Notes under the pieces: model-generated
Databases searched by the model: none
Seen by the model: only the letters and a program-made list of their open reading frames with translations
What the model was told of the DNA's origin: nothing
Assembly: GCA_019038645.1 (NCBI GenBank)
Contig: JAHOYT010000004.1
Span: 1 to 55,938 of the forward strand
DNA: 55,938 nt
From: Bacteroidales bacterium
GTDB lineage: Bacteria; Bacteroidota; Bacteroidia; Bacteroidales; UBA12077
Reading direction: 5' to 3'
Shown here: positions 15,823 through 55,938 of the stretch, piece after piece
Numbering within the stretch: the first letter of the stretch is position 1
Layout of the letters: each line of letters opens with the position of its first letter
Translations under genes and position numbers: made by a program

Positions 15823-16962
15823 TTAATGGTTAAATACAAGCATAATTTGTGCTCCATAACCACCAAATAAATTTGCTTCTCCAACATTCTGATATATTTG
15901 AAAATTATCAGGATTCCAGAAAGCCATCATGTAAAATATCCAGTTATCGTATGTCCATGAAAAATTTATAAACCTATAGAAATCATTATTTGTAAAATCG
16001 TAATAAACGATGGCCTGAAGATTATTTATTATGTTTAATGGATAACTTAAAGACATTGCTCCAAATCCAATTCCGCTGCCTTTTTCAAAAACACTTTCGG
16101 TTTTCTGATAAGTAAAGTATTCAGTAACAACATTTAATCCATTACCTAATGCAAAGGTATAATCTGCACCAACATTTATTAACCGCTGATATCGCTGATC
16201 TGTAAAGTCCAGATTTTGATGAATTAAAGCTGCTTCAAACCAGAGTCCTAATTCTAAATCAAATTTTCCGTCAATTGCATATCTGTTCTCTGAAAACCCT
16301 GTACGACTAGATGATGTATCAGCAAAAGTTCCATCAAATATTCCATCGCGATAATGATACGTTCCGGCGATCTCGCCAGTTAGAAAAGGCAACTGTATTC
16401 TTCCACCAATTTCGGATTTTTCCTTATCGGTGGGAAAAGTTTCCCAGCCTTTTGTGTCATCATTTCCATATAAATACCAAAGCCAAATATTTGCATTATT
16501 CAAAAAATAGTATCTTCCAAGCACAGCATGAACTCCATCAGTCATTTGAAGTGGATCACGCGGATCAATCTTGTCAAACCACATTAAAGGCCTCAATATA
16601 TTAGCTGATCCAAAATTTATTTTAAATAATCCTGCCCGTATATCAAACTGATTACCCGAAAAACTAACCCATCCCCGATATGGTTTAATTTTTGCAATTA
16701 TATCAGTAGTATCACCGGTCCAATAAAGTGTTGTGTATGTATTTAATGTAAACTCCATGTTAAAAGAATACTTATCCTTAAAATCTTTATTAAATAAAAG
16801 TGAAGGAAAATATTGTAATCCTAGCTGACTTTCAAAAGGCTTTTCAGGATTAATTGTGAGCCTGTTGATTAACTGGCCTTTTTCATCCATAAATTGAGCT
16901 GATATTTTCAAATTAGCGAACATTAGCAATATAAAGAATATGATATGTGTTGTTTTCAACAT
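15823..16962 (-). CDS. Porin-like outer membrane beta-barrel protein
   Basis: 379 residues with a Sec signal peptide (cleavage likely after ISA, near residue 22) and alternating aromatic/polar beta-strands to the end; the C-terminus is AQIMLVFNH. Strand motifs such as PYRGWVSFSGNQFDIRAGLFKINFG resemble alginate-export or phosphate-selective-porin-like barrels. It sits between the TetR gene and the ABC ATPase, so it may be the outer-membrane component or a co-regulated protein of the same system. Confidence 0.75.
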   Translation of the reverse strand: MLKTTHIIFFILLMFANLKISAQFMDEKGQLINRLTINPEKPFESQLGLQYFPSLLFNKDFKDKYSFNMEFTLNTYTTLYWTGDTTDIIAKIKPYRGWVSFSGNQFDIRAGLFKINFGSANILRPLMWFDKIDPRDPLQMTDGVHAVLGRYYFLNNANIWLWYLYGNDDTKGWETFPTDKEKSEIGGRIQLPFLTGEIAGTYHYRDGIFDGTFADTSSSRTGFSENRYAIDGKFDLELGLWFEAALIHQNLDFTDQRYQRLINVGADYTFALGNGLNVVTEYFTYQKTESVFEKGSGIGFGAMSLSYPLNIINNLQAIVYYDFTNNDFYRFINFSWTYDNWIFYMMAFWNPDNFQIYQNVGEANLFGGYGAQIMLVFNH

Positions 16963-18874: not shown

Positions 18875-19342
18875 TTAAGCAAGAACTGAAATCTTCATTA
18901 CTATTGGTTTTACTAAGTTTGCAAAATCTTTATAGGCCATTTTAATTAATTCATTATGAAATCCGGCAGCAAAAGCGATTTCTTTACCTTTTGTTAAAGT
19001 TTCTGCAACATAAACTTCCGTGTTGTATAAGTTCCCAAAAGGAGGCATTGCACCCACTTCACAATTAGGAAACATACTAATGAATTCGTCTTCTTCAGCT
19101 AATTCAACATTTTTGGTTCCGGTAATCTCTTTTAAAAGTCCAAAATCAATTTTATATGACGCAGGTAATACAACCATTGTCATTTTTCCATCAACCAATA
19201 CAATAACTGTTTTTGCTAAATCATTACCAGACACATGTGCAGAAGCAGCAACTTCCATGGCTGTATAAGCCGGAGAATGACTAATAACCACATACTTAAT
19301 ATCATTACGATTTAAGTAGTCTTTTACTTTTTTTATCGGCAT
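18875..19342 (-). CDS. YbaK/ProX-type aminoacyl-tRNA deacylase
   Basis: 155 residues covering a complete YbaK/EbsC domain. These free-standing trans-editing enzymes hydrolyse mischarged aminoacyl-tRNA, most often on tRNA-Pro or tRNA-Cys. Family marks: YTAMEVAASAHVSGNDLAKTVIVLVDGK with the conserved Lys at residue 44, VVLPASYKID, and CEVGAMPPFGNLYNTEVYV (the GxxPPFG segment). The specific mischarged amino acid cannot be told. Confidence 0.88.
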   Translation of the reverse strand: MPIKKVKDYLNRNDIKYVVISHSPAYTAMEVAASAHVSGNDLAKTVIVLVDGKMTMVVLPASYKIDFGLLKEITGTKNVELAEEDEFISMFPNCEVGAMPPFGNLYNTEVYVAETLTKGKEIAFAAGFHNELIKMAYKDFANLVKPIVMKISVLA

Positions 19343-19492
19343 AATATCATCTTATTATTCTGATTAAATAAACAATCTTGTGTACGTTATAATATTCTTA
19401 TAACAAAGAAGAGTTTTGTAGGGTTTCTTTACGTATTTTTGATAAGATATTTTCTACAAATTTACGAAACAACAAGTCTAAAGTCAATTATA

Positions 19493-19945
19493 ATGAGCTA
19501 TAATAATATATTAAACAGCTTAGGTCCATGCGGAATTAATTGCTCTAAATGCTTTGCATTTAAGAATGGAGCTATAAAGAAATTAAGTTCAGAGCTAAAA
19601 GAGAATCTTGGAGACTTTAATGTTTACGCTGAGCGCTTCGTTGATTTACTGGATGAACCGGTTTTTAAAAAATACCCTGACTTCAAAGAAATGCTTAATC
19701 ATTTCTCAAATATTGAATGCAAAGGTTGTAGAAATGATGATTGTAAGCTTTTTCAGGATTGTAACGTAAAACAATGTTCGAAAGATAATTCCGTAGATTT
19801 TTGTTTTCAATGCGAAGAATTTCCATGTAAGAAACATGGTTTTGATAAACATCTTGAAAAACGGTGGTTGTCAATTCAAAACAGAATGAATGAACTTGGT
19901 GTTGAAGGCTATTATAATCAAATTAAAGATTTATCGAGGTATTAA
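19493..19945 (+). CDS. DUF3795 cysteine-rich protein
   Basis: I chose the ATG at 19493; an upstream TTG at 19439 would add 18 unconvincing residues. The 150-residue protein carries eleven Cys in the DUF3795 pattern: GPCGINCSKCFAF at the start, then ECKGCRNDDCKLFQDC, QCS, and FCFQCEEFPCKKH. The arrangement suggests zinc or iron-sulfur binding; the function of the family is unknown. It converges on, and overlaps by 4 bases, the CGGC gene at the end of the metal/redox cluster. Confidence 0.85.
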   Translation: MSYNNILNSLGPCGINCSKCFAFKNGAIKKLSSELKENLGDFNVYAERFVDLLDEPVFKKYPDFKEMLNHFSNIECKGCRNDDCKLFQDCNVKQCSKDNSVDFCFQCEEFPCKKHGFDKHLEKRWLSIQNRMNELGVEGYYNQIKDLSRY

Positions 19946-20391
19946 TTATACGCTAACCGTACCTCTTCAGTAGACATAGTCGGCTCAATTATTTCTTGCC
20001 ATTTATTGGAATTCCATGTTCCTAATTTAGTATGTGTTTCATAATATTTTTGAGGAATTGGATGTGTGCCTACAACTACATCTACGCCATACTTTTCCTT
20101 TATAAATCTTTTAAAATGATCTATACGATGGCATGGTGGATAACCAACAACCATACCTGTAGCAAGATGTATTACATCAACACCGTTTTTTATCATTTCT
20201 TCGGGAGTATATTCAATATTCCCGCCAGGGCAACCACCACAACTGGTATAACCAACAATTTCTATATTCTCATCCTTACCATAAATACTGAAAGCACCTT
20301 CACGATTTTTCATTGATCTAAAACATTTCCCACCGGCACAATCACGATAACGATCACAAATAATTATTCCGATTTTAGTTGACTTTTCCAT
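19942..20391 (-). CDS. CGGC domain protein (putative metal-binding)
   Basis: 149 residues. The defining motif is SCGGCPGGN (near residue 51), with CDRYRDCAGGKCF at the N-terminus and YPPCHRIDHFKRFIKEKYGVDVVVGTHP later. CGGC proteins are small, Cys-rich and predicted to bind a metal cluster; they are common in anaerobes. It is the last gene of the minus-strand redox run and its start overlaps the DUF4405 gene by 17 bases, so it is coupled to it. Confidence 0.88.
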   Translation of the reverse strand: MEKSTKIGIIICDRYRDCAGGKCFRSMKNREGAFSIYGKDENIEIVGYTSCGGCPGGNIEYTPEEMIKNGVDVIHLATGMVVGYPPCHRIDHFKRFIKEKYGVDVVVGTHPIPQKYYETHTKLGTWNSNKWQEIIEPTMSTEEVRLAYN

Positions 20392-21139
20392 GATTTCCTG
20401 AGTTTTTATAATTATATATAATTACTTCTATTTCGCTCATTTTAAAACCATATTGTTTACGTAAATGCCCTAATTGATCAGATCCTGAAACTCCTGCAGG
20501 AAGTTTTAATTCAGTCTTTATTAACTCTACCGGCACATTATATTTTTTAGCTATTTCCGATAATGTCATGGAACCTTTTACTTCAATTGAAGGATCAATA
20601 TTGTGGTGTTCATGTTCCTCATGTTCTTCCGTTTTCTGAACTGGCTTATCAATTTCAAAACTTTCACCTTTAGATTTATGATCGGGAATTTTTGTTTCTG
20701 TTACGGCAGGCATTATATCTACTGATTCCAAAAGATATCTATCATGCCCTGTATCAATTTCATGTACTTCGACCCGAATAAAAAATGGAAAAATAACGAG
20801 TATAATTGTAATAATAACCAGAAATAATGTACTAACGATTCTTACATTTTTTACTTTGATTAAGTTCTGAAACAGACAAATGGTAAGCTTCCAGTGCAGA
20901 ATAATGTGTAGTGCTAGTAATACAACCAGCGCTATTGCTAAAATTAAATGTATTCTACCCCAGTCGTGCCTGTCAATTCCCCAAAAAGTCAGATCAACAC
21001 TTCGCCCATATTTTATCCAACGTTCAGTGCCGGGAAGTAAAATGTATTTTATAAGTAAACCTAAGCCTGCAATTGCAGCCATTAATACAAACATAATTGC
21101 ATCAATAATAAAATTCCAATTACTCTTACTCATAATCAT
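20375..21139 (-). CDS. DUF4405 membrane protein, cytochrome-b-like, with cytosolic/periplasmic tail
   Basis: 254 residues. Three membrane helices (about 9-31, 58-80, 94-115) carry His residues in DRHDWGRIHLILAIALVVLLALHIILHW, typical of DUF4405 and cytochrome b561-like heme ligation. The tail contains a short His/Glu-rich stretch (EEHEEHEHHN) and a helix-turn-helix-like segment MTLSEIAKKYNVPVELIKTELKLP, repeated in style near the end (GHLRKQYGFKMSEIEVIIYNY). It probably passes electrons between quinones and the soluble Fe-S proteins of the cluster. The MBL gene lies 5 bases upstream. Confidence 0.8.
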   Translation of the reverse strand: MIMSKSNWNFIIDAIMFVLMAAIAGLGLLIKYILLPGTERWIKYGRSVDLTFWGIDRHDWGRIHLILAIALVVLLALHIILHWKLTICLFQNLIKVKNVRIVSTLFLVIITIILVIFPFFIRVEVHEIDTGHDRYLLESVDIMPAVTETKIPDHKSKGESFEIDKPVQKTEEHEEHEHHNIDPSIEVKGSMTLSEIAKKYNVPVELIKTELKLPAGVSGSDQLGHLRKQYGFKMSEIEVIIYNYKNSGNHGKVN

Positions 21140-21144
21140 TTGAT

Positions 21145-21942
21145 TTAGAAAATTAATTCCATACCTGATTTAAGTTGCTTAATATTAAATTCATTGTGAA
21201 AAACCGCCAGAGCAGGCAATTCAGTACAATGCGATGGATATATTTCCTTTATATCCTGAGATTTAAGATATTTTATTGTTTCCCGTGTTTGTTGATTATT
21301 ATATTTTAAATGAAAACCTCCGATTACCGCTCTTATTTTATTTATACCTGTTACTTTTTTTGCATAATCAATCATATTACAAATTCCGGAATGAGCACAG
21401 CCTGAAATAATTATTATTTCATTTTCCAGGTTTATTACCAAACCTGAATCATCCAAAATAAAATCATCAATATTTTTTTCTAAAGCAAAGGAAGTTGTTT
21501 TTGATTCAAAGGAATTTAAACGGGGTATTTCTCCCGGAAAAATAATATTTTTTGAAATTGGGTATGGCTTTCGGGTAGATACAACATCAAATTTATCTTT
21601 TAGCTCATTCATCTGCAATTCGAGTCCAATATTTTCACCTTGTCTGCCGGCAGTCAGGTCACCGCCTTTTCGGTAACGTTTCTGAAATACATCGGGATGA
21701 CAAATCAGCTTTTTATTACTAATATATCTTAATCCATCGCCATGATCCCAGTGTCCGTGGCTAAGGACAACAGTTTCAATCTTGCCAATATCAATATTTA
21801 GTTTTTTTGCATTTTGTAAAAAAACATCGGAATGTCCTGTGTCGAAAAGAATATTAATATCATGTTCAATATAATAGGATAACCCGTGTTCAGAGCAAAA
21901 TTTCTCTGAAGCTGCATTTTCAGTTAAAACAGAAAGTTTCAT
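21145..21942 (-). CDS. MBL-fold metallohydrolase with an in-frame palindrome-derived insert
   Basis: 265 residues of the family that includes the dihydropterin ribofuranosyl-aminobenzene phosphate synthase-like hydrolases: ILFDTGHSDVFLQNA, the metal motif SHGHWDHGDG, SGCAHSGICN and GGFHL. Two metal ions are expected. At residues about 95-102 it reads DLTAGRQGE, where TAGRQ lies on a decayed copy of the genome's 16-bp palindrome (21641-21656); this surface loop is not part of the catalytic core. Its role in the cluster is unknown. The preceding NifX-like gene is 14 bases upstream. Confidence 0.85.
   Translation of the reverse strand: MKLSVLTENAASEKFCSEHGLSYYIEHDINILFDTGHSDVFLQNAKKLNIDIGKIETVVLSHGHWDHGDGLRYISNKKLICHPDVFQKRYRKGGDLTAGRQGENIGLELQMNELKDKFDVVSTRKPYPISKNIIFPGEIPRLNSFESKTTSFALEKNIDDFILDDSGLVINLENEIIIISGCAHSGICNMIDYAKKVTGINKIRAVIGGFHLKYNNQQTRETIKYLKSQDIKEIYPSHCTELPALAVFHNEFNIKQLKSGMELIF
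21641..21656. repeat. Palindrome-family copy (decayed) inside the MBL gene
   Basis: TGTCTGCCGGCAGTCA differs from TGCCTGCCGGCAGGCA at two positions; the central CTGCCGGCAG is intact. On the minus strand it encodes TAGRQ in the same codon phase as the permease copy. Confidence 0.75.
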
Positions 21943-21956
21943 ATATTATCTCTTCG

Positions 21957-22394
21957 TTAATGTTTATCTTCAACTGATGATTTAAGAATACCTGAATTTA
22001 TTGTGAACAACTTGTATCCTGAACTAAAATTATTCAGTTCGTCTTTTATCCAGTGCAAATGTCTGTTAATAATCCGCACAGCTACTTCAGGGCTTTCTGA
22101 TGATATAATTACAGGAATAAAATATTCATTAATAATTCTGATATTTTCACCAAATTGTTTTGATACAATCACTTTAATATCATTTTCCAAAAGATGTTTG
22201 ATTAAAAAATCAGCTTTCATATTATTGCCTGATTTATTTTCGTTCAATTCAGGCCTAAAATCATTTATAACTTCATTAACTTGTTTTAGCTCTCCTGATA
22301 CAATCTCATAAATAAGAAATTTGTTAGCATCGCCAAAAAAGATGTCCTCAAACTGATCTTCTTTATTTACTGCAAAAGCAAAACGCAAGTTCAT
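21957..22394 (-). CDS. NifX/orange-protein-like cluster-binding protein, divergent (copy A)
   Basis: 145 residues of the NifB/NifX/ORP fold, the most divergent of the four copies here. The opening RFAFAVNKEDQFEDIFFGDANKFLIYEI matches the family's first strand-loop, and IKVIVSKQFGENIRIINEYFIPVIIS its core. Members bind Fe-Mo or Mo-Cu-S clusters or their precursors. It is 3 bases downstream of copy B and likely arose by duplication. Confidence 0.78.
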   Translation of the reverse strand: MNLRFAFAVNKEDQFEDIFFGDANKFLIYEIVSGELKQVNEVINDFRPELNENKSGNNMKADFLIKHLLENDIKVIVSKQFGENIRIINEYFIPVIISSESPEVAVRIINRHLHWIKDELNNFSSGYKLFTINSGILKSSVEDKH

Positions 22395-22397
22395 AAT

Positions 22398-22799
22398 TTA
22401 TAATTCTTTTAAGTTAAGATGACTCCTATCTTCTCCTTTACTCCACTCCTTATCGATAATTTGAATACTTTGATGTAAACTTTTAATGCTTTCCGGAATA
22501 CTATTGTTGTTCATTAAAACACATACAAATTTCTTTTTTATTCTTTTAATATTCGGGCCAAACACCTTGGAAACAAGCACTTGTATATTTTCACCTTTAA
22601 ATAAACCCGCAATTCCTTTTGCTTTTTCAGGATCCGCATGTATACTTTCATCATCTTCTTCAGTTGTATTTTTTATTCTTTTTTTAAACTCCCAATCATT
22701 TTCAGAAATTTCATATACATCATAATACTCTGCATCCCCAAAATGCCTGTCCATAAATGTTTTTCCATCGTCTGTTGCAAAAGCTACTTTCATATTCAT
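22398..22799 (-). CDS. NifX/orange-protein-like cluster-binding protein (copy B)
   Basis: 133 residues. The family motif reads KVAFATDDGKTFMDRHFGDAEYYDVYEI; the core is IQVLVSKVFGPNIKRIKKKFVCVLMNN. An acidic, metal-chelating-looking loop (TEEDDESIHADPE) replaces the usual short turn. Closely related to copy A, which follows after 3 bases. Expected to hold a metal-sulfur cluster or its precursor for the pathway in this operon. Confidence 0.82.
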   Translation of the reverse strand: MNMKVAFATDDGKTFMDRHFGDAEYYDVYEISENDWEFKKRIKNTTEEDDESIHADPEKAKGIAGLFKGENIQVLVSKVFGPNIKRIKKKFVCVLMNNNSIPESIKSLHQSIQIIDKEWSKGEDRSHLNLKEL

Positions 22800-22828
22800 A
22801 AAATCTATATTTTTTCCATAACTATTTT

Positions 22829-23239
22829 TTAAAATTCCTTAAAAACTCTGGCTAATGAAAACCCAGGTGCCTGAACATTTAAATCAAGAAAATAGCCAAA
22901 AGGAGTTTGTTCTACTTTAAAACCTGAATTGGTTAATCGTTCATCGATATTATCAAATAATGCTTTTGAAAATTCCGGATCGGCTTTGCTTTCAGACAAA
23001 TGTGCAAACGAATGTAAAATGATATGCTTGGTTTCGTTTTTTCCGGCAATCCATTTTAAGTTCTTAAGCAATTTCTTTTTTACTTCGTTTTCCTTTTCTT
23101 CATCTTCTTTTTCGACCTGAATAAATGCAGTCTGAACATTTTCATATTCTTTTCCGTCATTAAAATCAGGCATCGATTCAATAGTTTTTATTGTAGGATT
23201 ATACGAAAAACTATTCATGTATATCATTAGCAGCTTCAT
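22829..23239 (-). CDS. Free-standing archaeal-type threonyl-tRNA synthetase editing domain
   Basis: 136 residues that align along their whole length with the N-terminal editing domain of archaeal ThrRS: opening KLLMIYMNSFSY, TAFIQVEKEDEE, the core HIILHSFAHLSESKADP with His80, and SGFKVEQTPFGYFLDL. That domain removes Ser from tRNA-Thr in archaea; bacteria normally use an unrelated N2 domain. No synthetase is attached. From memory, the archaeal proteins have a Lys right after PFGYY that helps catalysis; here it is Leu118. It lies 4 bases downstream of the flavoprotein gene inside the redox operon, so its role may not be classical editing. Confidence 0.85.
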   Translation of the reverse strand: MKLLMIYMNSFSYNPTIKTIESMPDFNDGKEYENVQTAFIQVEKEDEEKENEVKKKLLKNLKWIAGKNETKHIILHSFAHLSESKADPEFSKALFDNIDERLTNSGFKVEQTPFGYFLDLNVQAPGFSLARVFKEF

Positions 23240-23243
23240 ACGC

Positions 23244-24611
23244 TTATGCTTTTAGTTCTTTATTTATTTGTGCAATTATTCCCTCGGCTGCCTTAATTAA
23301 TATTGTTTTAGTGGGAGCACTGGTTAACAGAGGATGAGATCCTATTTGGAATGATATCAACTCAAAAACTGTAACACCCTTTTGAATGGCCAGACCTATT
23401 GTATTAATTATTTCTCCTGCTGATTTTCCTCCCCAAACCTCACCTCCAATAATGGAACCATCACAAGGCGATGCAAAAAGCTTAACAGAGAGTGGAGACG
23501 TGTCTTCAAATGATCCTGGATGAGTATCAAAATCACTGAATTTAGCAGACAAATACTCGATGTTTGCTTCAGCCGCATTACTATCATTTACACCAGCAGC
23601 AGCCATTGCTATGCCATTAATTTCTGTAGAAAAAACAGCCAGTGTTCCGGAAAAAGTCTTTCTGATTTTGATACCAAAAAGATTATGGCCAAGGACACGG
23701 GCTTCGGCAGTTGCTGTTGAAGCAAGCATAACATGATCCATTCGTCCGGTTAAAAAACCTATGGTCTGAGAGCAATCACCAACTGCACAAATATCTTTCT
23801 CTTTTGTGCGTTCATAATTATCAACTACAATTGCTCCCATTTTATTCAATTCAAGACCAATATTTTGTACCAGTTCTGTATTCGGTTTATAACCTATAGC
23901 CATTATCACAGCATCACACTGAATTTCTTCATCTGAATCAACTATGACAGAACTAACAACTCCATTTGTCCCATTGACTTTTTTAACCCTAACATTTGTT
24001 TTTACATCAACTGCAGTTTCTGTTAAAGCTGCTGTAGCAATCTGACTAAGTTCCTTTGAGAATGCTTTTGAAAAACAGTATTGCTCACTTTCAATAAGAG
24101 TAACTTTTTTATTAGGATTTAGAGCTAATTGTTCTGCTACTTCTGCACCTATAAAACCACCACCAATAATTACTATGTTCTTTTTTGATTTTAACTCTTC
24201 GTGTATCTCCTTAATATAATTGTAGCTTTTTTTAATGTAAAAAACATTTTTAAGGTCGTAACCCGGAATAAAATCAGGAATAACTACTTTAGAGCCAGTT
24301 GCAAGAACAAGTTTTTCGTAAGCAAACGTATTACCTGCATCTGTTGTAACTGTTTTATCTATTTTATTAACTTCCGTAATTTTTTCTGTAATAACTTCTC
24401 CCCCAAGATCAATAAACGGTTTTGGTCCCATAACATTTTTATCAACGCCATCAAGTCTGTGAAAAACATATGGAATTCCACAAGGAACCAATCCTTTTTC
24501 TTCTTCCTTAAACATCAACATCGATTTTTCCGGGTGTTGTTTTTTAGCTGTAACACCTGTTATTATCCCTGCAGGACCACCACCAATTATTATAACATCG
24601 TATCTCTTCAT
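23244..24611 (-). CDS. FAD-dependent pyridine nucleotide-disulfide oxidoreductase, CoA-disulfide reductase / NADH oxidase-like
   Basis: 455 residues. The FAD Rossmann motif GGGPAG is at residues 10-15, the NAD motif is IVIIGGGFIGAEVAE (near 147), and the FAD ribose segment is CAVGDCSQT. A single Cys44 in LVPCGIPYVF is placed like the redox Cys of CoA-disulfide and polysulfide reductases. There is no C-terminal rhodanese domain. It could supply electrons or persulfide to the cluster proteins of this operon. The downstream editing-domain gene starts 4 bases away; copy C of the NifX family is 2 bases upstream. Confidence 0.88.
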   Translation of the reverse strand: MKRYDVIIIGGGPAGIITGVTAKKQHPEKSMLMFKEEEKGLVPCGIPYVFHRLDGVDKNVMGPKPFIDLGGEVITEKITEVNKIDKTVTTDAGNTFAYEKLVLATGSKVVIPDFIPGYDLKNVFYIKKSYNYIKEIHEELKSKKNIVIIGGGFIGAEVAEQLALNPNKKVTLIESEQYCFSKAFSKELSQIATAALTETAVDVKTNVRVKKVNGTNGVVSSVIVDSDEEIQCDAVIMAIGYKPNTELVQNIGLELNKMGAIVVDNYERTKEKDICAVGDCSQTIGFLTGRMDHVMLASTATAEARVLGHNLFGIKIRKTFSGTLAVFSTEINGIAMAAAGVNDSNAAEANIEYLSAKFSDFDTHPGSFEDTSPLSVKLFASPCDGSIIGGEVWGGKSAGEIINTIGLAIQKGVTVFELISFQIGSHPLLTSAPTKTILIKAAEGIIAQINKELKA

Positions 24612-24613
24612 CC

Positions 24614-24952
24614 CTAAAATTCTTTTAAGCTGTTATTTTTATATGCTTCAAACGCTTCCTTAACAGACATTTGTCCGGCACCAATATAAATCTTCATTCC
24701 TGTCTTTTGTAAAATTGTAGCTGCATTTCCGCCAGGTCCATTACCAGTAAGTAATACTTGTGGTCCCATTTCAAATAATTTTTGTGATGTTTTTGGACCA
24801 GCACCATGTGCTTCATTTTCAATTTCTCTATTATCAAATGATGTAAACTCATCTTTTTCATCATCATAAACTAAAATAAATTCAGTTCTTCCAAATCGTG
24901 GATCCATTTCTGATTCCCATTCTGTTCCTTTTGTTGTAAATGCTATTTTCAT
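24614..24952 (-). CDS. NifX/orange-protein-like cluster-binding protein (copy C)
   Basis: 112 residues, the size of a minimal orange-protein/MTH1175-type domain. It opens KIAFTTKGTEWESEMDPRFGRTEFILVYD and has the conserved QVLLTGNGPGGNAATILQKTGMKIYIG core. Such proteins bind metal-sulfur clusters non-covalently in a surface cleft. It sits between the flavoprotein gene (2 bases) and the ATPase gene pair (69-base gap). Confidence 0.9.
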   Translation of the reverse strand: MKIAFTTKGTEWESEMDPRFGRTEFILVYDDEKDEFTSFDNREIENEAHGAGPKTSQKLFEMGPQVLLTGNGPGGNAATILQKTGMKIYIGAGQMSVKEAFEAYKNNSLKEF

Positions 24953-25021
24953 TTTTTTCTATTTAGTATTTTATTAATATTCTAATTATATACTTTCACT
25001 TTTATTTCTGTTCTTATTTTC

Positions 25022-25903
25022 TCAATTTGAATTCGCCAATTTTTTAATCTTTTCCCAACTACTTACAATCAAGTCTTTCAATTCGTCCTGATCATATTCA
25101 ACAATTGTTTTACCAAAAGTCATTGCCTTTGTAAAGTTTTCATTATAAGGTAAACTGGCAATATGTTCAACAGACTCTTCATTAAGAAACCGTATAATGT
25201 CCTTTGTTACATCTGTATTTATATCATATTTATTTATTATACATCCTGCTTTTAAATTAAACTTTTTAACCAGTTCATAAACTCGTCTTAAGTCATGTAA
25301 GCCTGATAATGAGGGCTCTGTAACCAAAACCACAAAATTTGCACCTGAAAGCGATGAAACAACAGGGCATCCTATTCCCGGAGAACCATCCACTATGATA
25401 TAATCCTTATTGTTTTCTTCAGCTAAACGTTTAGCCTCATTTTTAACTTTTGCAACTAATTTTCCGGAGTTTTCAGCTCCAATACCCAACTTTGCATGCA
25501 CCAATGTATTTTCAATTTTGGTTTTAGAAATATACCAGTCGCCAACATTTTGATCGTGCATGCTGATTGCCTCTATCGGACAAACTCTTTCACAATATCC
25601 ACACCCTTCACAATTTAAAGTATTAATTGTATGCTGATTGTTTATTACAGGAATAGCATTAAAGCGGCAAACATCAGCACATATTCCACAATTGGTACAT
25701 TTATCTTCACTGATTCTGGAAGCAACGCCACTGAAAAAATTCTCTGATTTTTCAACTATTGGTTTCATTAGTAAATGCAGATCAGCTGCATCAACATCGC
25801 AATCAGCAACAATGGCATCATTCCCTGCCAAAACTGCTAAAGACGCCGTAACAGAAGTTTTTCCTGTTCCCCCCTTACCGGAAATAACAACAATTTCCTT
25901 CAT
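25022..25903 (-). CDS. MinD/Mrp-type ATPase with inserted 2[4Fe-4S] ferredoxin domain (second of pair)
   Basis: 293 residues. Deviant Walker A GKGGTGKTS starts near residue 9; the inserted ferredoxin carries CTNCGICADVC and CEGCGYCERVC (residues about 68-110); switch II reads IIVDGSPGIGCPV. The architecture matches the paired ATPases of the Desulfovibrio orange-protein operon and related Fe-S scaffold ATPases. It presumably uses ATP to load or deliver metal clusters to the NifX-like proteins. Its partner gene ends 1 base before it begins. Confidence 0.92.
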   Translation of the reverse strand: MKEIVVISGKGGTGKTSVTASLAVLAGNDAIVADCDVDAADLHLLMKPIVEKSENFFSGVASRISEDKCTNCGICADVCRFNAIPVINNQHTINTLNCEGCGYCERVCPIEAISMHDQNVGDWYISKTKIENTLVHAKLGIGAENSGKLVAKVKNEAKRLAEENNKDYIIVDGSPGIGCPVVSSLSGANFVVLVTEPSLSGLHDLRRVYELVKKFNLKAGCIINKYDINTDVTKDIIRFLNEESVEHIASLPYNENFTKAMTFGKTIVEYDQDELKDLIVSSWEKIKKLANSN

Positions 25904-25904
25904 C

Positions 25905-26765
25905 TCAGTTATTATTTTTTAAATTTATAATGTAGTTCTTAACGTTTTGAAGTTCCTTTTTAACCTCTGGTAATTCAGTATAAACTAACTCTCCTTTTGA
26001 ATATAATTCAGCCACTTTTCGGCTATTAGGTATTTTTGCAAGAATTGGAATATTATCTTCTTCACAATAATCAAGCACATCATCATTACCAACACCATAA
26101 CGATTAATTACAACTCCGAAATCCTTTTGTAGTTCTTTCATTGTTTCAACCGCAAGTTTCAGGTCATGCAAACCAAAAGGGGTTGGTTCAGTAACTAAAA
26201 TTACAAAATCAACATCTTTTGTTGCCTCTATAACAGGGCACGATGTTCCCGGAGGTGCATCAAATATTTTTACAGTATTCTTATTAAAAGCTTTATCAAC
26301 ATATTCATTTGTTTGGGCAATTAACGGAACAGCTTGCTCCTGACCTATATCCAGGCGACTTTCAATAAATGAAATATTTTTATTTTCAAATTGTTTTAAA
26401 AGCCCCATTCTTTGTGTTATCATTGGTAAAGATGAAGTAGGGCATAATTCGGAGCATGCATAACAACTATGACATAATTCAGGGAACACTAATATTTGAG
26501 GGCCCAATTGAATTACAGCATGAAAATTACATACTTTCTGACATTCACCACATAAAGTACAGGTATCTTCTTTCCATTCAGGAATCATCTTGTACTTTAT
26601 TTCTTCTTTTACTAATTCACCTTTAATAAATAAACCCGAATTTGGTTCTTCTACATCCAAATCAGTTAAAACTACAGTTTCAGTTTCTGCAAAAAGAGCA
26701 GTTAAGTTTGTTGATAATGTTGTTTTTCCTGTACCACCCTTTCCGCTTGCAATTGCTATTTTCAT
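25905..26765 (-). CDS. MinD/Mrp-type ATPase with inserted 2[4Fe-4S] ferredoxin domain (first of pair)
   Basis: 286 residues with the same design as its neighbour: GKGGTGKTTLS near residue 8, CTLCGECQKVC and CHSCYACSELC (residues about 64-104), and IFDAPPGTSCPVI. The two ATPases are clearly homologous but divergent in their C-terminal thirds, so they probably form a heterodimer or act in sequence. One base separates the two genes. Confidence 0.92.
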   Translation of the reverse strand: MKIAIASGKGGTGKTTLSTNLTALFAETETVVLTDLDVEEPNSGLFIKGELVKEEIKYKMIPEWKEDTCTLCGECQKVCNFHAVIQLGPQILVFPELCHSCYACSELCPTSSLPMITQRMGLLKQFENKNISFIESRLDIGQEQAVPLIAQTNEYVDKAFNKNTVKIFDAPPGTSCPVIEATKDVDFVILVTEPTPFGLHDLKLAVETMKELQKDFGVVINRYGVGNDDVLDYCEEDNIPILAKIPNSRKVAELYSKGELVYTELPEVKKELQNVKNYIINLKNNN

Positions 26766-26782
26766 TTTCTGTTAACATTAAT

Positions 26783-27121
26783 CTAATGGTCACATAAATT
26801 TTGACCAGTTTTTAACTGATCATTTAAATAATGCTCAACTAACTCCGAAGGAGAACCATCCTGTACACCCATATGAACTTCAATATTATTCTGTGCAAAT
26901 AAATCCTGAGCTTTTTGCCCCATTCCACCAGCAATTATTACATGTACACCAATATCTGCCAGAAATTTAGGATAAACACCTGGCTGATGTACAGGCGGGG
27001 TTACAAATTCTTCATTTACAACTTTGTTTTCTTCCACATCGACAATTGCAAATTTTTCACAATGTCCAAAATGTGCTGTTAATTGATTACCTACAGTTGG
27101 TATAGCAAATTTCATTTTCAT
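26783..27121 (-). CDS. NifX/orange-protein-like cluster-binding protein (copy D)
   Basis: 112 residues. The motif FAIPTVGNQLTAHFGHCEKFAIVDV includes the AHFGHC segment typical of the NifB/NifX family, with HVIIAGGMGQKAQDLFAQNNIEVHMG as the core. It is the most canonical of the four copies. It lies 17 bases upstream of the ATPase pair. Confidence 0.92.
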   Translation of the reverse strand: MKMKFAIPTVGNQLTAHFGHCEKFAIVDVEENKVVNEEFVTPPVHQPGVYPKFLADIGVHVIIAGGMGQKAQDLFAQNNIEVHMGVQDGSPSELVEHYLNDQLKTGQNLCDH

Positions 27122-27141
27122 TATTTTCTATTCTTTTAGCT

Positions 27142-27157
27142 TGCCTGTTGGCAGGCA
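27142..27157. repeat. Palindrome-family copy between two operon genes
   Basis: TGCCTGTTGGCAGGCA differs from the consensus palindrome TGCCTGCCGGCAGGCA only by TT for CC at the centre. It lies in the 51-base gap between the ferredoxin and NifX copy D genes. Confidence 0.7.
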
Positions 27158-27172
27158 GATTATTATTTTAAA

Positions 27173-27361
27173 TTAACTGTGTATTATTGCTCTCACAGGA
27201 CAAACATTTTCCCCTTGTATTGCACATTCCATTAAATCATCGGATACAGATTCAGTAACTACTTTTGCAACATGATTGTTATCCATTTGATATACATTTG
27301 GACAAACAGCCTCGCAAACACCACATCCGCGACATAATTCACTTTTTACTTTAAATTTCAT
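27173..27361 (-). CDS. Small [4Fe-4S] ferredoxin
   Basis: 62 residues. C10-x2-C13-x2-C16-x3-C20-P is followed by a second pair in MECAIQGENVCPVRAI, the pattern of single-cluster ferredoxins (the -x2- Cys of the second motif is lost). Likely the soluble electron carrier for the ATPases or the flavoprotein of this operon. It is 12 bases downstream of the zinc-ribbon gene. Confidence 0.9.
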   Translation of the reverse strand: MKFKVKSELCRGCGVCEAVCPNVYQMDNNHVAKVVTESVSDDLMECAIQGENVCPVRAIIHS

Positions 27362-27373
27362 TTTTAAACATTA

Positions 27374-27595
27374 TTATTTATTTAACAATTCTTCTCTTAT
27401 CATCGTTTGTCCACACTCCGGACATTTAAGTGTTGTACATTTAACGCCCTGTTGATGAGGAGTTTTTTCTCCGCATTTAGCGCAAACACAATAACCTCCA
27501 ACACCAAAACCTCCACCATTATTACGGCCTTTTCCACCACCACTGCCAAGTCCTTTTCCATTTCCTAAACCTTGTCCTTTTCCTGAATTTCTCAT
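27374..27595 (-). CDS. Gly-rich small zinc-ribbon protein
   Basis: 73 residues. The first 33 are mostly Gly, Lys and Asn (GKGQGLGNGKGLGSGGGKG) and are probably disordered. The rest is a zinc or rubredoxin-like ribbon: CVCAKCGEKTPH and LKCPECGQTMIREE. Comparable small proteins accompany NifX/DUF134 genes in anaerobes. Function unknown; possibly metal delivery. Confidence 0.8.
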   Translation of the reverse strand: MRNSGKGQGLGNGKGLGSGGGKGRNNGGGFGVGGYCVCAKCGEKTPHQQGVKCTTLKCPECGQTMIREELLNK

Positions 27596-27630
27596 GTTTA
27601 ATATTTTTATTCGGTTTATTAAAAGACAAA

Positions 27631-27711
27631 AAACAAGGCCATTAGTATAAAAACATTTAAACTAATCTAAACCATATAAAATGATATTTTTATTAGCTAA
27701 TGGTCTTGTTT
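27631..27711. repeat. 81-bp inverted-repeat element with 5-bp flanking duplication (mini-MITE candidate)
   Basis: AAACAAGGCCATTAG (27631-27645) and CTAATGGTCTTGTTT (27697-27711) are inverted at 14 of 15 positions. The element is flanked on both sides by ACAAA (27626-27630 and 27712-27716), as expected for a target-site duplication. The 51-base interior is AT-rich and non-coding. An alternative reading is a transcriptional terminator with a very long loop, since on the minus strand the second arm runs into T6. Confidence 0.55.
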
Positions 27712-27723
27712 ACAAACCATGGA

Positions 27724-28017
27724 TTAACTTAATTTCTCCAACTTTTTTTCTAAAGTTGATAATTGCTCTTTAAGCATTTTTACCTCTTCTTCAATTGTTT
27801 CGTTGTAAGAAATATTTTTATTCCCGGAATCAGTGAAATTTCTTCCAAAGCCCCTTCCGGAACCCCGGTTAAATCCTCTTTTAACTCCATTTCTCATTCC
27901 TCTTCCAAATCCGAAACCGGTATTCAATTCCTGATTTGAATTTCCTGAACAATTTCCCATTCCTCGACCTGTTAATGGCCCGGCACCTTCAGGTCCTGTT
28001 TTATTACCTCCTGGCAT
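27724..28017 (-). CDS. DUF5320 family Gly/Arg-rich protein
   Basis: 97 residues from the ATG at 28017; an upstream in-frame start would add 17 residues that belong to the overlapping gene's sequence. It begins MPGGNKTGPEGAGPLTGRGMG, the DUF5320 signature, continues Gly/Arg/Phe-rich, and ends in a coiled-coil-like helix VKMLKEQLSTLEKKLEKL. DUF5320 genes regularly sit next to DUF134 and NifX-like genes; function unknown. The start lies 14 bases inside the end of the DUF134 gene, so it is translationally coupled. Confidence 0.88.
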   Translation of the reverse strand: MPGGNKTGPEGAGPLTGRGMGNCSGNSNQELNTGFGFGRGMRNGVKRGFNRGSGRGFGRNFTDSGNKNISYNETIEEEVKMLKEQLSTLEKKLEKLS

Positions 28018-28474
28018 AATTACCTCCTTTGTTTTGATTTCTGTTATTACAACATTTACCATGACCAAAACCTCCTGCCAGATTCAAAATATTTTCTGAA
28101 TGACACGCAGGACATTCTGTTATCGTTTCATTAAATTTCATTCTGAACATTTGACCACAACTCTGACAACGAATTATATTGTTACGAAAATGAATATTAC
28201 CACCATCAATATTCAGTACTTTACCATTAATAACGAAGTCAGCAATTTTTTTACGTGCTTTCTCAATTAATCTTGTAAACGTAGGTCTCGATATTTCCAT
28301 TTCTCCTGCCGCTTCTTCGTGCGAAAGCCCTATGTGATCAGCAAGACGGAACGCTTCAAATTCATCAAGATTAAGTAGAACCTGATCCAGCGATACACCT
28401 CTTACACCAATGGGTTTAAAATCAGTAAACACTGGTGGTTCATGTACAATTCTGTTATTTTTGGGTCGTGCCAT
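28004..28474 (-). CDS. DUF134 family predicted DNA-binding protein, probable regulator of the cluster
   Basis: 156 residues from the ATG at 28474; longer in-frame starts lie inside the promoter. It begins MARPKNNRIVHEPP, the family opening. A helix-turn-helix follows, GLSHEEAAGEMEISRPTFTRLIEKARKKIAD (residues about 49-79), and then a zinc-ribbon-like C-terminus with CQSCGQMF and CPACHSEN plus a Cys/Asn/Gly tail. The sigma-like DNA-binding region with a metal ribbon suggests a metal- or redox-responsive regulator. It is the first gene of the 14-gene minus-strand run and has a textbook promoter. Confidence 0.9.
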   Translation of the reverse strand: MARPKNNRIVHEPPVFTDFKPIGVRGVSLDQVLLNLDEFEAFRLADHIGLSHEEAAGEMEISRPTFTRLIEKARKKIADFVINGKVLNIDGGNIHFRNNIIRCQSCGQMFRMKFNETITECPACHSENILNLAGGFGHGKCCNNRNQNKGGNYARR

Positions 28475-28500
28475 AAGTATTTTATATAAATATTCTGCTA

Positions 28501-28532
28501 CAAAGATATTGCACATATGTTCATAATGCAAA
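28501..28532 (-). promoter_or_regulatory. Consensus promoter of the DUF134-headed operon with candidate operator
   Basis: On the minus strand TTTG (28532-28529), 20 bases, then TATCTTTG (28508-28501): a perfect Bacteroidota -33/-7 pair, 26 bases before the ATG. Between the boxes lies an inverted repeat TTGCA-N13-TGCAA (28509-28531) with an inner ACATATGT palindrome, well placed for autoregulation. Confidence 0.8.
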
Positions 28533-47588: not shown

Positions 47589-49232
47589 TTAGTTGTCTAA
47601 CCGAACCCACACTCCGTTTAAATAACAATATATATGATGTAATGAACTATTAACATATATTTCGCCCTCAACAGGATTAGATGGAGCAGTACTACGTGGT
47701 GTTAATTTTAATATATCCTTGATAGTTACTTTATCATTAGCAAAATCTCCCTCTATAAGGTTCTTAGTTTGACTATTTGAGATGATAAGTTTGTCGCTAA
47801 CACTTGTTTCATTGTAACCTGCATACTTTCCTATAAATACGTTTGATGTACCAGTTTGGACACTATAACCTGAATAAGCACCAATAAATACATTAAACGT
47901 TGAAGAATTATCTGAATAACCGGAAAAGTGGCCAACGTATGTATTTAAACTACCACCTGCATTATTGTATGCCGTGGCCCGTCCTATGTAAATATTATTT
48001 GAACCACTCTCATTTCCAAAACCTGCTGACTGACCAACAAATACATTTTCGTCTCCACTTATGTTACTATAACCAGCATAATTACCTATAATTGTATTAG
48101 CTGCACCATCGGTACTATTTGTTCCGGCGACATTACCAATAAATGTATTCAGAAAGCCTGAGGTATTATCATAACCAGCCTCATAACCAATAAAAACATT
48201 TCTGTATCCGTCTATATTAGAATATCCAGAATTATAACCAATGAATACGTTATTAAACCCCTCAGTATTACTATAACCGGTTTGATAGCCTAAAAATACA
48301 TTATTATCTCCGGTAGAGGTATTTAGTCCACTTTTATATCCCATAAATGAGTTATATGAACCAGTTGTAATACTAACTCCACTTTCATGTCCAATAAAAT
48401 AATTCTGCGGAGTTAATTGTAAATAACTTTGTGAACTTCCTGTACTATTATCCCTAACTCCAAATCCTCCTTCCGCATCCTTAGTAAAAATTCTTGTACT
48501 ATCAATAGTTACAACCATGTATTGATCATTAATTCCTTTTGTAGGTGATCTTCCGCTAACAGCAAATCCTCCAATTCGTCCCTTAGACTGAACTGTATCA
48601 TTAACATAAATTCTTGTACTGTCTGGTGTTACTATAAATATATTCGTTTCGTCTGCTTTTGTTGGGCTTCTTCCACTTACAGCAAATCCACCAATACTAC
48701 CTTTTGATGCTTCTTCAACTATTACTTTTACACCATCAGGAAATACCGCAAAGACAACATTCCCATTATTATCTTTTACAGCAAAAAGTGTATCTGGCTC
48801 TGGAATATAAATATTATTAGAACTAAGATTTGATGCCGAATTAGCATGTAAGGCATAAGGTACAGACAATAACTGTGATGCTCCTAAATCAGTAAGCCCT
48901 GATCCTGCATCAACTGTAACTCCAATATATTTATCATTTATTGTCCAATCAATATCTGCAAAAACGCCAAAGATTGGGCTTCCTGTTCCTATAACCAAAT
49001 TTACATGCCCATAATCACTTGTTGTTACTAAATGACTTTCCGTAAATATAGCATCTCCTCCTGCCTCAATATCAATAATAGATATTTGAACCTCAACAGA
49101 CTGATTAGCTATAATTTCACCCCCAGCATCCCTTAATACAGCTTGATAATTTAATAAATCAGGATTTTGAGTATATCCTGCTAATGCCGAAAAAAAAACA
49201 TAAATTGCGAATAAGAAAACTTTACTTTTCAT
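47589..49232 (-). CDS. Secreted repeat protein (40-residue and 17-residue repeats), no S74 domain
   Basis: 547 residues with signal peptide MKSKVFLFAIYVFFSALAGYTQ. An N-terminal domain (about 23-177; NYQAVLRDAGGEII, QLLSVPYALHA) is shared with the paralogue at 52099. Then come two 40-residue repeats (178-217, 218-257) containing GGFAVSGRSPTK and DSTRIY. About eleven exact 17-residue repeats follow (291-477) with consensus GxxNxFIGYxxGYxNxS, likely a stacked beta structure like adhesin heads. The C-terminus is short (VNSSLHHIYCYLNGVWVRLDN) and lacks the S74 chaperone present in the two paralogues. Confidence 0.85.
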   Translation of the reverse strand: MKSKVFLFAIYVFFSALAGYTQNPDLLNYQAVLRDAGGEIIANQSVEVQISIIDIEAGGDAIFTESHLVTTSDYGHVNLVIGTGSPIFGVFADIDWTINDKYIGVTVDAGSGLTDLGASQLLSVPYALHANSASNLSSNNIYIPEPDTLFAVKDNNGNVVFAVFPDGVKVIVEEASKGSIGGFAVSGRSPTKADETNIFIVTPDSTRIYVNDTVQSKGRIGGFAVSGRSPTKGINDQYMVVTIDSTRIFTKDAEGGFGVRDNSTGSSQSYLQLTPQNYFIGHESGVSITTGSYNSFMGYKSGLNTSTGDNNVFLGYQTGYSNTEGFNNVFIGYNSGYSNIDGYRNVFIGYEAGYDNTSGFLNTFIGNVAGTNSTDGAANTIIGNYAGYSNISGDENVFVGQSAGFGNESGSNNIYIGRATAYNNAGGSLNTYVGHFSGYSDNSSTFNVFIGAYSGYSVQTGTSNVFIGKYAGYNETSVSDKLIISNSQTKNLIEGDFANDKVTIKDILKLTPRSTAPSNPVEGEIYVNSSLHHIYCYLNGVWVRLDN

Positions 49233-54498: not shown

Positions 54499-54596
54499 AA
54501 TAATTAGTTTATAATTTTAAAAGGAAAGATAACGTTTTAAATGTTAATTATCAAATTGAACTATTTAATGTACTATTTTTAAAGATTAACGTTTTA

Positions 54597-55938
54597 CTAT
54601 TCATTTTCTAATAACTTAATTATTTCATCTAATTTTTGTTTTAATTCTTCTATCTGAGATTGTTGTTCTTTAATTGCTTCAACCAAAACTGCAGTTATAG
54701 GAGCATATTTCATTGAATAAACAGTTTCTTCGGAACCGTCTACAACTTCAGGGATAATATCGATAACTTCTTGAGCTATGAATCCTATCTCATGTCCAAT
54801 CATCTCTGGGTCTTTCCAATCAAAACTTACTCCTCTTATTTTTAAAACTTTATCTAATGCTCCGTCGATTGTTTGTATATTTTGTTTTTTTCTTCTATCA
54901 CTTAAACTATTCCACGAATAGTCTCCTCCTCCACGACCATTAACATAAAAAGTATAATCCAGAGGATTATCACCGGCCACTCCATTTATTACGACCTGAT
55001 TATTATCAAATTCACCATAAATTAAAGTGCTGGTTGAGTTATTTGCAATGTATAATTTATCATTACCCGTTTTTCCAGTACCGGCATTATTACCTAAACA
55101 TACGTTATCACTTCCTAATCTAGTAAGATATCCTCCCATTCCGGCACCGGCGCCTACAAATGTATTATTATTACCACTGCTCTCACCACCCCAACTAGAA
55201 CCTCCACCATAGCCCAATACTGTATTGTTTTCTCCAACAACATTTCTACCGGCATCAATTCCAAGTATTACTGTTCCAAAAGTTTCATGCGAAGTAGCAT
55301 AATCATTAGTTCCTGTTCTGTCTCCAATGCAAATATTATCATCACCTGTAATATTTTTACCTGCTTCGTTACCAATAAATGTACTATGCGTATTACCCGA
55401 AGCATTTTCCCCTGCAAGATTTCCAATAAAAATATTATCATACCCACTTACATTACTATATCCACTTTTATATCCTATGAATACATTCTCATGTCCACTT
55501 ATATTCTCAAAACCTGTCTGATGACCCACAAACACATTGTTATCACCACCACTATTATTTTTTCCAGATTCATAACCTATAAATGTATTGTATTCACCAG
55601 AAGTATTAGATCTTCCTGAAAGATAACCCATAAATGAATTATAGCTTGCGTTATTTAAGTATCCTGACTGAAAACCAAGAAAAGTATTATATGACCCTAA
55701 TTGGTTAGATAAGCCAGATTCGTAACCTAACATAATATTATAAAGTCCTGTTGTAATGGATTCGCCAGCATTATGACCAATAAAATAGTTTTGTTTATTT
55801 AAATTAAGAAAGTTTTCAGCAGCACCACTTTCAATGTTTGCAACACCAAAGCCTGCCGTAGAATCCATTACATAAATTCTGGCACTATCTTGTGTTACAA
55901 CAAGATATTCACTGGTTATTCCTTTTGTTGGTGAACGA
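54597..55938 (-). CDS. Repeat protein with S74 chaperone domain, N-terminus beyond the window (partial)
   Basis: The reading frame stays open to the window edge. Upstream of the first internal ATG (55868) it still encodes RSPTKGITSEYLVVTQDSAR, part of the 40-residue repeat, so the gene is truncated by the window. It continues with 16-18-residue repeats of the N-x-F-I-G-Y type, then an S74 domain: SLSDRRKKQNIQTIDGALDKVLKIRGVSFDW with Ser-Asp and Lys, GHEIGFIAQEVIDIIPEVV, and a final coiled coil (EAIKEQQSQIEELKQKLDEI). Third paralogue of the family; the gene order suggests tandem duplication. Confidence 0.88.
   Translation of the reverse strand, partial: RSPTKGITSEYLVVTQDSARIYVMDSTAGFGVANIESGAAENFLNLNKQNYFIGHNAGESITTGLYNIMLGYESGLSNQLGSYNTFLGFQSGYLNNASYNSFMGYLSGRSNTSGEYNTFIGYESGKNNSGGDNNVFVGHQTGFENISGHENVFIGYKSGYSNVSGYDNIFIGNLAGENASGNTHSTFIGNEAGKNITGDDNICIGDRTGTNDYATSHETFGTVILGIDAGRNVVGENNTVLGYGGGSSWGGESSGNNNTFVGAGAGMGGYLTRLGSDNVCLGNNAGTGKTGNDKLYIANNSTSTLIYGEFDNNQVVINGVAGDNPLDYTFYVNGRGGGDYSWNSLSDRRKKQNIQTIDGALDKVLKIRGVSFDWKDPEMIGHEIGFIAQEVIDIIPEVVDGSEETVYSMKYAPITAVLVEAIKEQQSQIEELKQKLDEIIKLLENE

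Follow-up and report, generated by a model that had tools for sequence, protein, structure and literature searches.

An ORP-like operon in an uncultured Bacteroidales bacterium, a candidate module for an anionic metal-sulfide cluster

We have analyzed a stretch of 55,938 nucleotides (the window) from the genome, 96.9% complete, of an uncultured bacterium of the Bacteroidales. The closest named relatives of one of its genes agree with a Bacteroidales-like host. Between 28474 and 19942 it carries an operon of 15 genes, all of them open frames on the minus strand, to which all the coordinates below refer. The initial annotation had described a run of 14 genes; open frames and family matches confirm the minus-strand run and, through the Pfam matches, the gene families named then, but the number of genes is 15. 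The first gene (28004-28474, most likely starting at the ATG at 28474) codes for a DUF134 regulator (81.6 bits) with a zinc ribbon and a GGFGHGKCC tail, the form GGFGHGxCC being found in 9 of 14 aligned DUF134 members. It is followed by a DUF5320 protein (27724-28017, 77.4 bits) with a Gly/Arg-rich cationic head and an acidic C-terminal part, and by ZnR (27374-27595), which combines a Gly-rich head with a CxCxxC...CPxC ribbon and was recognised by its sequence and by its homologues in relatives, the Pfam match being weak (best E 0.003). Next are a 4Fe-4S type ferredoxin (27173-27361, Fer4_15, 40.9 bits), the 112 aa ORP1 (26783-27121), MinDa (25905-26765), MinDb (25022-25903) and NifX2 (24614-24952). 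The rest of the operon codes for an FAD disulfide reductase of the CoA-disulfide reductase/NADH oxidase family (23244-24611, Pyr_redox_2, 187 bits), whose Cys44 is kept and aligns with the Cys of 6pfz, 3cgb and 5l1n; TED, a free-standing threonyl-tRNA synthetase (ThrRS) editing domain of archaeal type (22829-23239, PF08915, 134.7 bits); NifX3 (22398-22799); NifX4 (21957-22394); an MBL-fold hydrolase of the 2p4z/TM1679 type (21145-21942, Lactamase_B, 35.9 bits); a DUF4405 membrane protein (20375-21139, 47.7 bits) in which the His residues of the membrane part are conserved in the alignment; and a CGGC-domain protein (19942-20391, 104.1 bits).

Four proteins of the operon match PF02579, with 72.0, 52.2 (NifX2), 34.1 (NifX3) and 24.3 bits (NifX4), and at E≤0.001 the whole genome has four matches, all of them in the operon. 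NifX4 falls below the Pfam cut-off of 26.3 bits. However, in the alignment of NifX4 and NifX3 homologues 15 of the 15 members match PF02579 at E≤0.001, and the structure model of this divergent protein (pLDDT 83.6) matches NifX/NafY-type folds, so that we consider it a genuine NifX-fold protein and retain the number of four NifX/ORP-type proteins given before. NifX2, of the Orp8 or Desulfovibrio gigas ORP type, matches the D. gigas ORP structure 2wfb with E=1.1e-8, although 1rdu and 1eo1 score higher. ORP1 (NF041136, 126.8 bits) matches the last 102 positions of the profile, that is, the second or Di-Nase domain of MrpORP; of the CxHFGHCE motif described for MrpORP, the ORP1 of the window lacks the initial Cys. 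Both P-loop ATPases, MinDa and MinDb, give CbiA/MinD matches and have two inserted CxxCxxCxxxC motifs each, consistent with an inserted two-cluster ferredoxin of the Orp3/Orp4 type; the assignment of MinDb is backed by synteny as well, and the earlier reading as tandem MinD ATPases with inserted ferredoxins holds. The nitrogenase component family PF00148 had no match in the genome, which extends to the whole genome the earlier remark that no nitrogenase lies nearby, and rules out a nitrogenase accessory role of the NifX/NafY kind in cofactor assembly. On the side of the metal, modA and MoeA were found in the genome. These genes point only to the use of molybdenum, but because of them a lack of Mo supply was dropped as an argument against Mo, which is still a possible metal. 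The operon contains no NBP35-type Mrp domain, and it can hardly be called the complete system for a mixed-metal sulfur cluster that had been proposed.

The gene order is kept in relatives, as the search for conserved neighbourhoods suggested in the initial annotation has now established, and therefore the operon is more than a chance assembly of unrelated genes. In Bacteroidota the order DUF134, DUF5320, zinc ribbon, ORP1, the two ferredoxin-inserted MinD ATPases and NifX2 recurs as a core, and the same order without ORP1 is found in Cloacimonadota. At E≤1e-40, and including its own genome, MinDa was detected in 10 of 395 genomes of the phylum and in 42 of 98 relatives.

Upstream of DUF134 there is a promoter-like sequence, TTTG-N20-TATCTTTG (28501-28532), with exact TTTG and TAnnTTTG boxes, which we take to be the Bacteroidota promoter consensus. 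Between them lies the palindrome ATGAACATATGTGCAATA (28507-28524), a putative DUF134 operator that differs from the consensus ATGAACATATGTTCAT by two mismatches, both in one arm. Counting identical DUF134 proteins once, 24 of 30 loci had the palindrome in front of DUF134 with at most three mismatches, the consensus having first been read by eye from 13 of those loci and the window, and many of the loci being close kin. It was absent from the other six upstream regions (L023, L192, L206, L222, L224 and L225), although in L206 the DUF134 start is possibly miscalled. In 14 of the 24 operator-bearing loci the palindrome lies, with the same spacing, between exact TTTG-N17-23-TAnnTTTG boxes. First-order Markov resamples served as controls, with 300 random sequences per region. 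All this indicates that the palindrome is likely an operator. Scanning the genome gave one exact site, and at up to three mismatches 25 sites against 16 for the reversed pattern, so a genome-wide regulon is unsupported; so is a general DUF134 site, only 3 of 30 DUF134 genes in the phylum sample having the palindrome at up to two mismatches, one of them being the locus L019 again. A scan for sigma70-type promoters found 49 against 45.3 expected. A literature search on DUF134, DUF5320, COG1342 and COG1149 returned no paper about them, judged by title or the start of the abstract. For DUF134, the locus offers a regulator and a putative operator that can be tested together.

A terminator-like hairpin (-18.7 kcal/mol) followed by a T-rich run is located just after DUF5320 (27621-27711). 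Hairpins of this kind were found in 11 of 11 gaps between DUF5320 and ZnR and in 4 of 20 comparison gaps between MinDb and NifX2, the count being restricted to gaps of 25-350 bases whose two genes both appear in the non-overlapping gene list; this left out loci such as L032, L213 and L217. On inspection, L213 and L217 had no clear hairpin with a T-run. In L218 the best-scoring fold in the gap was a long one. The recurrence of the hairpin after the second gene makes a single even transcript from 28474 to 19942, as had been supposed, doubtful, and the locus thus provides a candidate attenuator.

Our preferred reading, to which we would give about an even chance (roughly 0.5), is that the operon is an autorepressed and attenuated ORP-like module for building and carrying an anionic metal-sulfide cluster, and probably for reducing it, which works with thiol and heme redox partners. 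Read from the gene content, electrons would pass from the flavoprotein, the ferredoxin and the DUF4405 protein to the ATPase pair, which would spend ATP to load or reduce the cluster on the NifX-fold carriers, while the Gly/Arg-rich DUF5320 protein and the ribbon head may wrap the anionic thiometallate in trans, as proposed for the cationic tail of IssA, the thioferrate protein of Pyrococcus furiosus. DUF134 would repress the operon to which it belongs: bound to the palindrome between the two boxes, it would block RNA polymerase until its Cys/His-rich C-terminus senses the metal or thiol state and the repression is released. The hairpin 3' of DUF5320 would attenuate transcription, and DUF134 and DUF5320 would thus be made in excess of the metalloproteins.

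A possible, although less probable, explanation is that of a metal or metalloid stress operon, with DUF134 as a repressor that senses metals and with NifX-fold proteins that bind toxic thiophilic metals, which in relatives would also be methylated and exported. In relatives the extended clusters also code for SAM methyltransferases, MFS-like proteins, a damage-control phosphatase and ArsP_2, a putative 10TM heavy-metal exporter, and the Cys/His tail of DUF134 suits a sensor. But the operon of the window has neither the exporter nor the methyltransferases, none of its genes matched a metal-resistance family, and we know of no detoxification role for the ATPase-ferredoxin core. It is unlikely that the system stores iron and sulfur as IssA does, in the form of thioferrate and not as a defined carrier cluster, with the cationic tail encoded apart from the scaffold. 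By composition alone, the heads of DUF5320 (first 62 residues: 31% Gly, 15% Lys/Arg, pI 11.9) and ZnR (50% Gly, pI 12.0) resemble the proposed thioferrate-binding tail of IssA, given in PMC5524996 as having 15 Gly, 7 cationic and 14 aromatic residues in 70 and a pI of 10.7; however, aromatics make up just 8% of the DUF5320 head, His included. Less credible still is a spatial or cell-division system, a hypothesis stated for the D. vulgaris ORP complex, from its MinD-like ATPases, in PMC4672049, which says that confirmation is needed. The ATPases are indeed of the MinD/ParA type, but apart from them 0 of the 15 genes match a division family, and the inserted ferredoxins, the flavoprotein, DUF4405 and the NifX carriers fit redox chemistry better.

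TED is a gene of 136 aa and not part of a threonyl-tRNA synthetase. Its model (pLDDT 92.2) matches 1y2q over the whole length (TM 0.90), so the fold announced by the name tRNA-editing-type domain is there, but the pocket residues have been replaced and the editing function does not follow. In archaeal numbering (the alignment included one archaeal sequence only), full-length members have Phe for Tyr120 in 80/80, Leu for Lys121 in 79/80 and Arg for Glu134 in 80/80 (F117, L118 and R131 in the window), while His83 is retained in 80/80; of 83 rows, three were left out for being under 120 residues long (L044 being in two pieces and L094 cut by a contig end). These loci are the best 80 of 89 confirmed, and since the search relied on two peptide patterns from the N-terminal third, the sample is biased to close relatives. 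According to PMC4491819, the P. abyssi domain holds the alpha-amino group through Glu134, K121M severely compromises editing, activity does not require Tyr120 or Glu134, and DTD has Met at the position of Lys121. We found MinDa in 13 of 23 genomes with TED and in 29 of 75 without it (one-sided p=0.10), on the same contig as TED in only 6 of the 13; at E≤1e-100, a threshold picked after seeing the data, the numbers were 11/23 and 15/75 (p=0.011). Among 78 of the 80 loci (no gene was labelled TED in L054 and L056, and many loci are cut by contig ends), the MinD pair was within 10 kb in 10 and any NifX, ORP or MinDa gene in 23; L228-L237 had none of the core genes near TED, and the operons L203, L205, L206 and L207, although syntenic, lacked TED. 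This loose association rules out an obligate part of the module: TED is an optional add-on derived from the archaeal ThrRS proofreading fold. Judging by the pocket, it has probably lost the editing of Ser-tRNAThr; binding of an anionic ligand, or action on a different acyl substrate, is more likely. That TED is a working trans-editing factor in a translation-quality and redox stress unit is most improbable, for although the fold, His83, the dispensable residues, the Met of DTD and the TrmO-type genes in some relatives agree with it, the K121M effect, the invariant Arg at 134, and the DTD and two tRNA_SAD frames (874 and 654 aa, by their length probably AlaRS and ThrRS) elsewhere in the genome speak against it. 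No paper about a free-standing bacterial PF08915 family was found by title or abstract start, and the family seems to be a case of a proofreading fold of translation put to a different use.

Going back to the metal-sulfide module, a more detailed version of it is rather speculative: a split, regulated thiometallate system with NifX scaffolds and a separate DUF5320 wrapper overproduced by means of a conserved attenuator, DUF134 autorepression through a palindrome shared between phyla, and TED as a new bacterial protein family in which the pocket of the archaeal ThrRS, its amino-group-holding Glu changed to Arg, takes the anionic ligand of the module.

Among known systems, the D. vulgaris ORP complex has, like this operon, a pair of MinD-type ATPases, each of them with two 4Fe-4S motifs inserted (a likeness judged by family and motif), the single-domain NifX-fold protein Orp8, to which NifX2 corresponds, and the Di-Nase domain of MrpORP, to which ORP1 corresponds. 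D. gigas ORP is a Mo-Cu protein that binds S2MoS2CuS2MoS2. There are also differences. MrpORP of D. vulgaris is an NBP35-type ATPase fused to Di-Nase, whereas ORP1 is free-standing and has the Di-Nase part only; two divergent sigma54 operons with a cognate activator are replaced here by one-way genes with a TTTG/TAnnTTTG promoter and the DUF134 palindrome; no Fe-S protein like Orp5 was recognised among the operon genes from their family matches; and redox genes have been added. Hence, of the earlier statement that this is the core of the Desulfovibrio ORP complex, an ORP-like core survives, but not the Desulfovibrio complex itself. According to PMC6345978, Orp4 and Orp8 of D. vulgaris co-purify with Orp3, which has Fe-S-type absorption. 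IssA shares the NifX-type globular domain and the cationic Gly-rich stretch, but has both in one chain, the stretch being a tail rich in Gly and aromatics, while in this operon the stretches are on DUF5320 and the ZnR head. TED has the whole-length fold and the His83 of the archaeal ThrRS N-terminal editing domain, with Phe/Leu/Arg instead of Tyr120/Lys121/Glu134, and is free-standing and bacterial. The flavoprotein has the fold and the aligned redox Cys of the CoA-disulfide reductase/NADH oxidase family, but does not reach the curated NCBIfam cut-offs (230.8 of 458 bits at best) and therefore probably forms a separate subfamily. What the operon adds to these systems is a defined ORP-type gene set in a phylum other than that of Desulfovibrio.

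The operon comprises 15 minus-strand genes that begin with DUF134, whose ATG is at 28474, and extend to 19942, as read from open frames and family matches: DUF134, DUF5320, a zinc ribbon (ZnR), a ferredoxin (Fd), ORP1 (ORP, orange protein), the ATPases MinDa and MinDb, NifX2, a flavoprotein, TED (a free-standing archaeal-type ThrRS editing domain), NifX3, NifX4, MBL, DUF4405 and CGGC. The gene run described in the initial annotation holds, and its interpretation stands in outline but not in detail. Neighboring genes lie 1-69 bases apart, with two overlaps (DUF134/DUF5320 and DUF4405/CGGC) and one long gap of 128 bases 3' of DUF5320. A genome-wide profile search gave four matches to the NifX-fold family PF02579, all inside the operon. 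The fourth, NifX4, scores under the Pfam cut-off; among aligned homologues of NifX4 and NifX3, 15/15 match PF02579, and the NifX4 AlphaFold model resembles NifX- and NafY-type structures. The genome (96.9% complete) yielded no nitrogenase component, in agreement with the earlier remark that none was nearby; modA and MoeA were found. A small inverted repeat, GCTTGCCTGTTGGCAGGC, is located at 27139-27158 between the ferredoxin and ORP1 genes. A convergent DUF3795 gene (19439-19945, plus strand) shares 4 bases with the end of the CGGC gene. Elsewhere in the window, a protein that combines a YadA head and an S74 chaperone domain (52099-55868, minus strand) adjoins a second S74 protein, and two large ORFs, 15823-16962 and 47589-49232 (minus strand; 379 and 547 aa), gave no Pfam match at 1e-8.

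Upstream of DUF134 we read the boxes of a promoter-like TTTG-N20-TATCTTTG (28532-28501, minus strand), named from the Bacteroidota promoter consensus, with ATGAACATATGTGCAA sitting between them. The regions upstream of 30 non-identical DUF134 genes, the window's among them, were compared for a 16-base palindrome, ATGAACATATGTTCAT: it appeared in 23/30 at ≤2 mismatches and in 24/30 at ≤3, and in those 23 regions 0/300 random sequences per region were as good. At 14 of the 24 loci it lies between exact promoter boxes with the same spacing. It was not found in 6/30 regions; the locus L023 has a different palindrome, with 4 mismatches. Among 30 DUF134 loci sampled over the phylum (L144-L173) it was present at ≤2 mismatches in 3/30, and 27/30 have at least 5 mismatches, so that the palindrome, judging from the sequences, goes with one class of DUF134, mostly ORP-linked. 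A ZnR-type ribbon was detected within the same frame in 26/30 of the sampled DUF134 genes, over a stretch also covered by the DUF134 model. The natural reading is that DUF134 would repress its own operon by occlusion at the palindrome, sign and signal both being presumed.

The DUF5320-ZnR gap contains a hairpin with a T-rich run after it (27711-27621, minus strand, -18.7 kcal/mol). The same was found in 11/11 distinct DUF5320-ZnR gaps entering the test (25-350 bases) versus 4/20 MinDb-NifX2 gaps under the same scoring; two loci outside it (L213 and L217) have no clear hairpin. The stem sequences vary among loci (e.g., L036, L038, L047 and L208), which argues that the function would reside in the structure. 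This recurrent hairpin counts against a single, even transcript. Both flanking genes have cationic glycine-rich heads. Over its first 62 residues DUF5320 has 31% Gly, 15% Lys/Arg and 3% Asp/Glu (pI 11.9), the DUF5320 heads of relatives range from 18 to 39% Gly (pI 9.7-12.0), and the 34-residue head of ZnR is 50% Gly (pI 12.0). DUF5320 is the one ATG-started frame of at least 90 aa in the window, out of 58, with >20% Gly in this stretch. In the IssA tail, for which wrapping of anionic thioferrate has been proposed, 15/70 residues are Gly, 7/70 cationic and 14/70 aromatic, and the pI is 10.7 (PMC5524996). From this likeness, one of composition, DUF5320 might act in trans as an IssA-like tail. 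In a relative's contig (L225:6413) an Arg-rich-headed ribbon, judged by inspection of the sequence, runs on in one frame into a two-cluster ferredoxin, a part to which the window's Fd model gave no match.

At E≤1e-40, MinDa was detected in 10/395 phylum-sampled genomes, 42/98 relatives and 14/20 genomes of the genus, own genome counted. The neighborhood recurs as well: gene order is kept within the genus, with TED (L210 and L211) or without it (L205, L206 and L207), and the Cloacimonadota contigs L084 and L089 carry TED, then DUF134, DUF5320, ribbon, MinDa and MinDb. All five genus loci have an ARMT1-like damage-control phosphatase gene near the 3' end, absent from the window. Some relatives have extra genes (ArsP_2, methyltransferase, TrmO-type or FMN-oxidoreductase). 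The flavoprotein has the CoA-disulfide reductase/NADH oxidase fold anticipated for it, Cys44 aligning with a cysteine of 6pfz, 3cgb and 5l1n, and MBL is closest to 2p4z and TM1679. As for the heme-type character assigned to DUF4405, its membrane-part His residues are kept in 6 aligned members, and heme binding is predicted.

TED, noted before as a tRNA-editing-type domain, matches PF08915 (134.7 bits), and its model (pLDDT 92.2) superimposes on 1y2q with TM 0.90. Its nearest named relatives are Bacteroidales MAGs (≤93% identity), which makes Bacteroidales the most probable order for the host. In Pyrococcus abyssi the substrate alpha-amino group is held by Glu134 of the other subunit. Activity nonetheless needs neither Tyr120 nor Glu134, whereas a Lys-to-Met change at 121, where DTD naturally has Met, severely compromises editing (PMC4491819). 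In 80/80 full-length bacterial TED (window included; the 80 of 83 rows with at least 120 residues, from the best of 89 confirmed loci) these positions are Phe for Tyr120 and Arg for Glu134; Lys121 is Leu in 79/80 and His once, and His83 is retained in 80/80. We infer from these residues that Ser-tRNAThr editing has been lost, and TED may deacylate some other substrate. The genome additionally encodes two tRNA_SAD matches and one DTD. Beyond the operon, a tRNA_edit gene (PF04073, 84.9 bits; 18875-19342, minus strand) represents a second, unrelated aminoacyl-tRNA editing fold. TED is accessory and patchy: above cut-off in 2/395 phylum genomes, 23/98 relatives and 7/20 of the genus, sharing a contig with MinDa in 6/13 relatives having both (own genome included), and present without core genes at L228-L237.

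An ORP-like core in itself is already known; from a specialist's viewpoint, the putative operator, the candidate attenuator hairpin and the rewritten TED pocket are worth testing. Because the fused MrpORP, the divergent sigma54 arrangement and a recognizable Orp5 were not seen at the operon, we term the system ORP-like and not the ORP complex proper as described (PMC6345978, PMC4672049, PMC3897727). The ORP reading of the initial annotation holds for the core. ORP1 matches the MrpORP model (126.8 bits) over the model's last 102 positions. The motifs given for the Di-Nase domain are CxHFGHCE and a terminal CDH (PMC6345978); the C-terminus is CDH in 11/12 aligned ORP1 proteins (CDS in L018) and HFGHCE occurs in 8/12, the window protein keeping HFGHCE and missing the motif's first Cys. 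For NifX2, the ORP structure from D. gigas, 2wfb, is a match (E=1.1e-8), with 1rdu and 1eo1 scoring better. The ATPase pair MinDa/MinDb corresponds to Orp3/Orp4 of the ORP complex, by domain make-up only.
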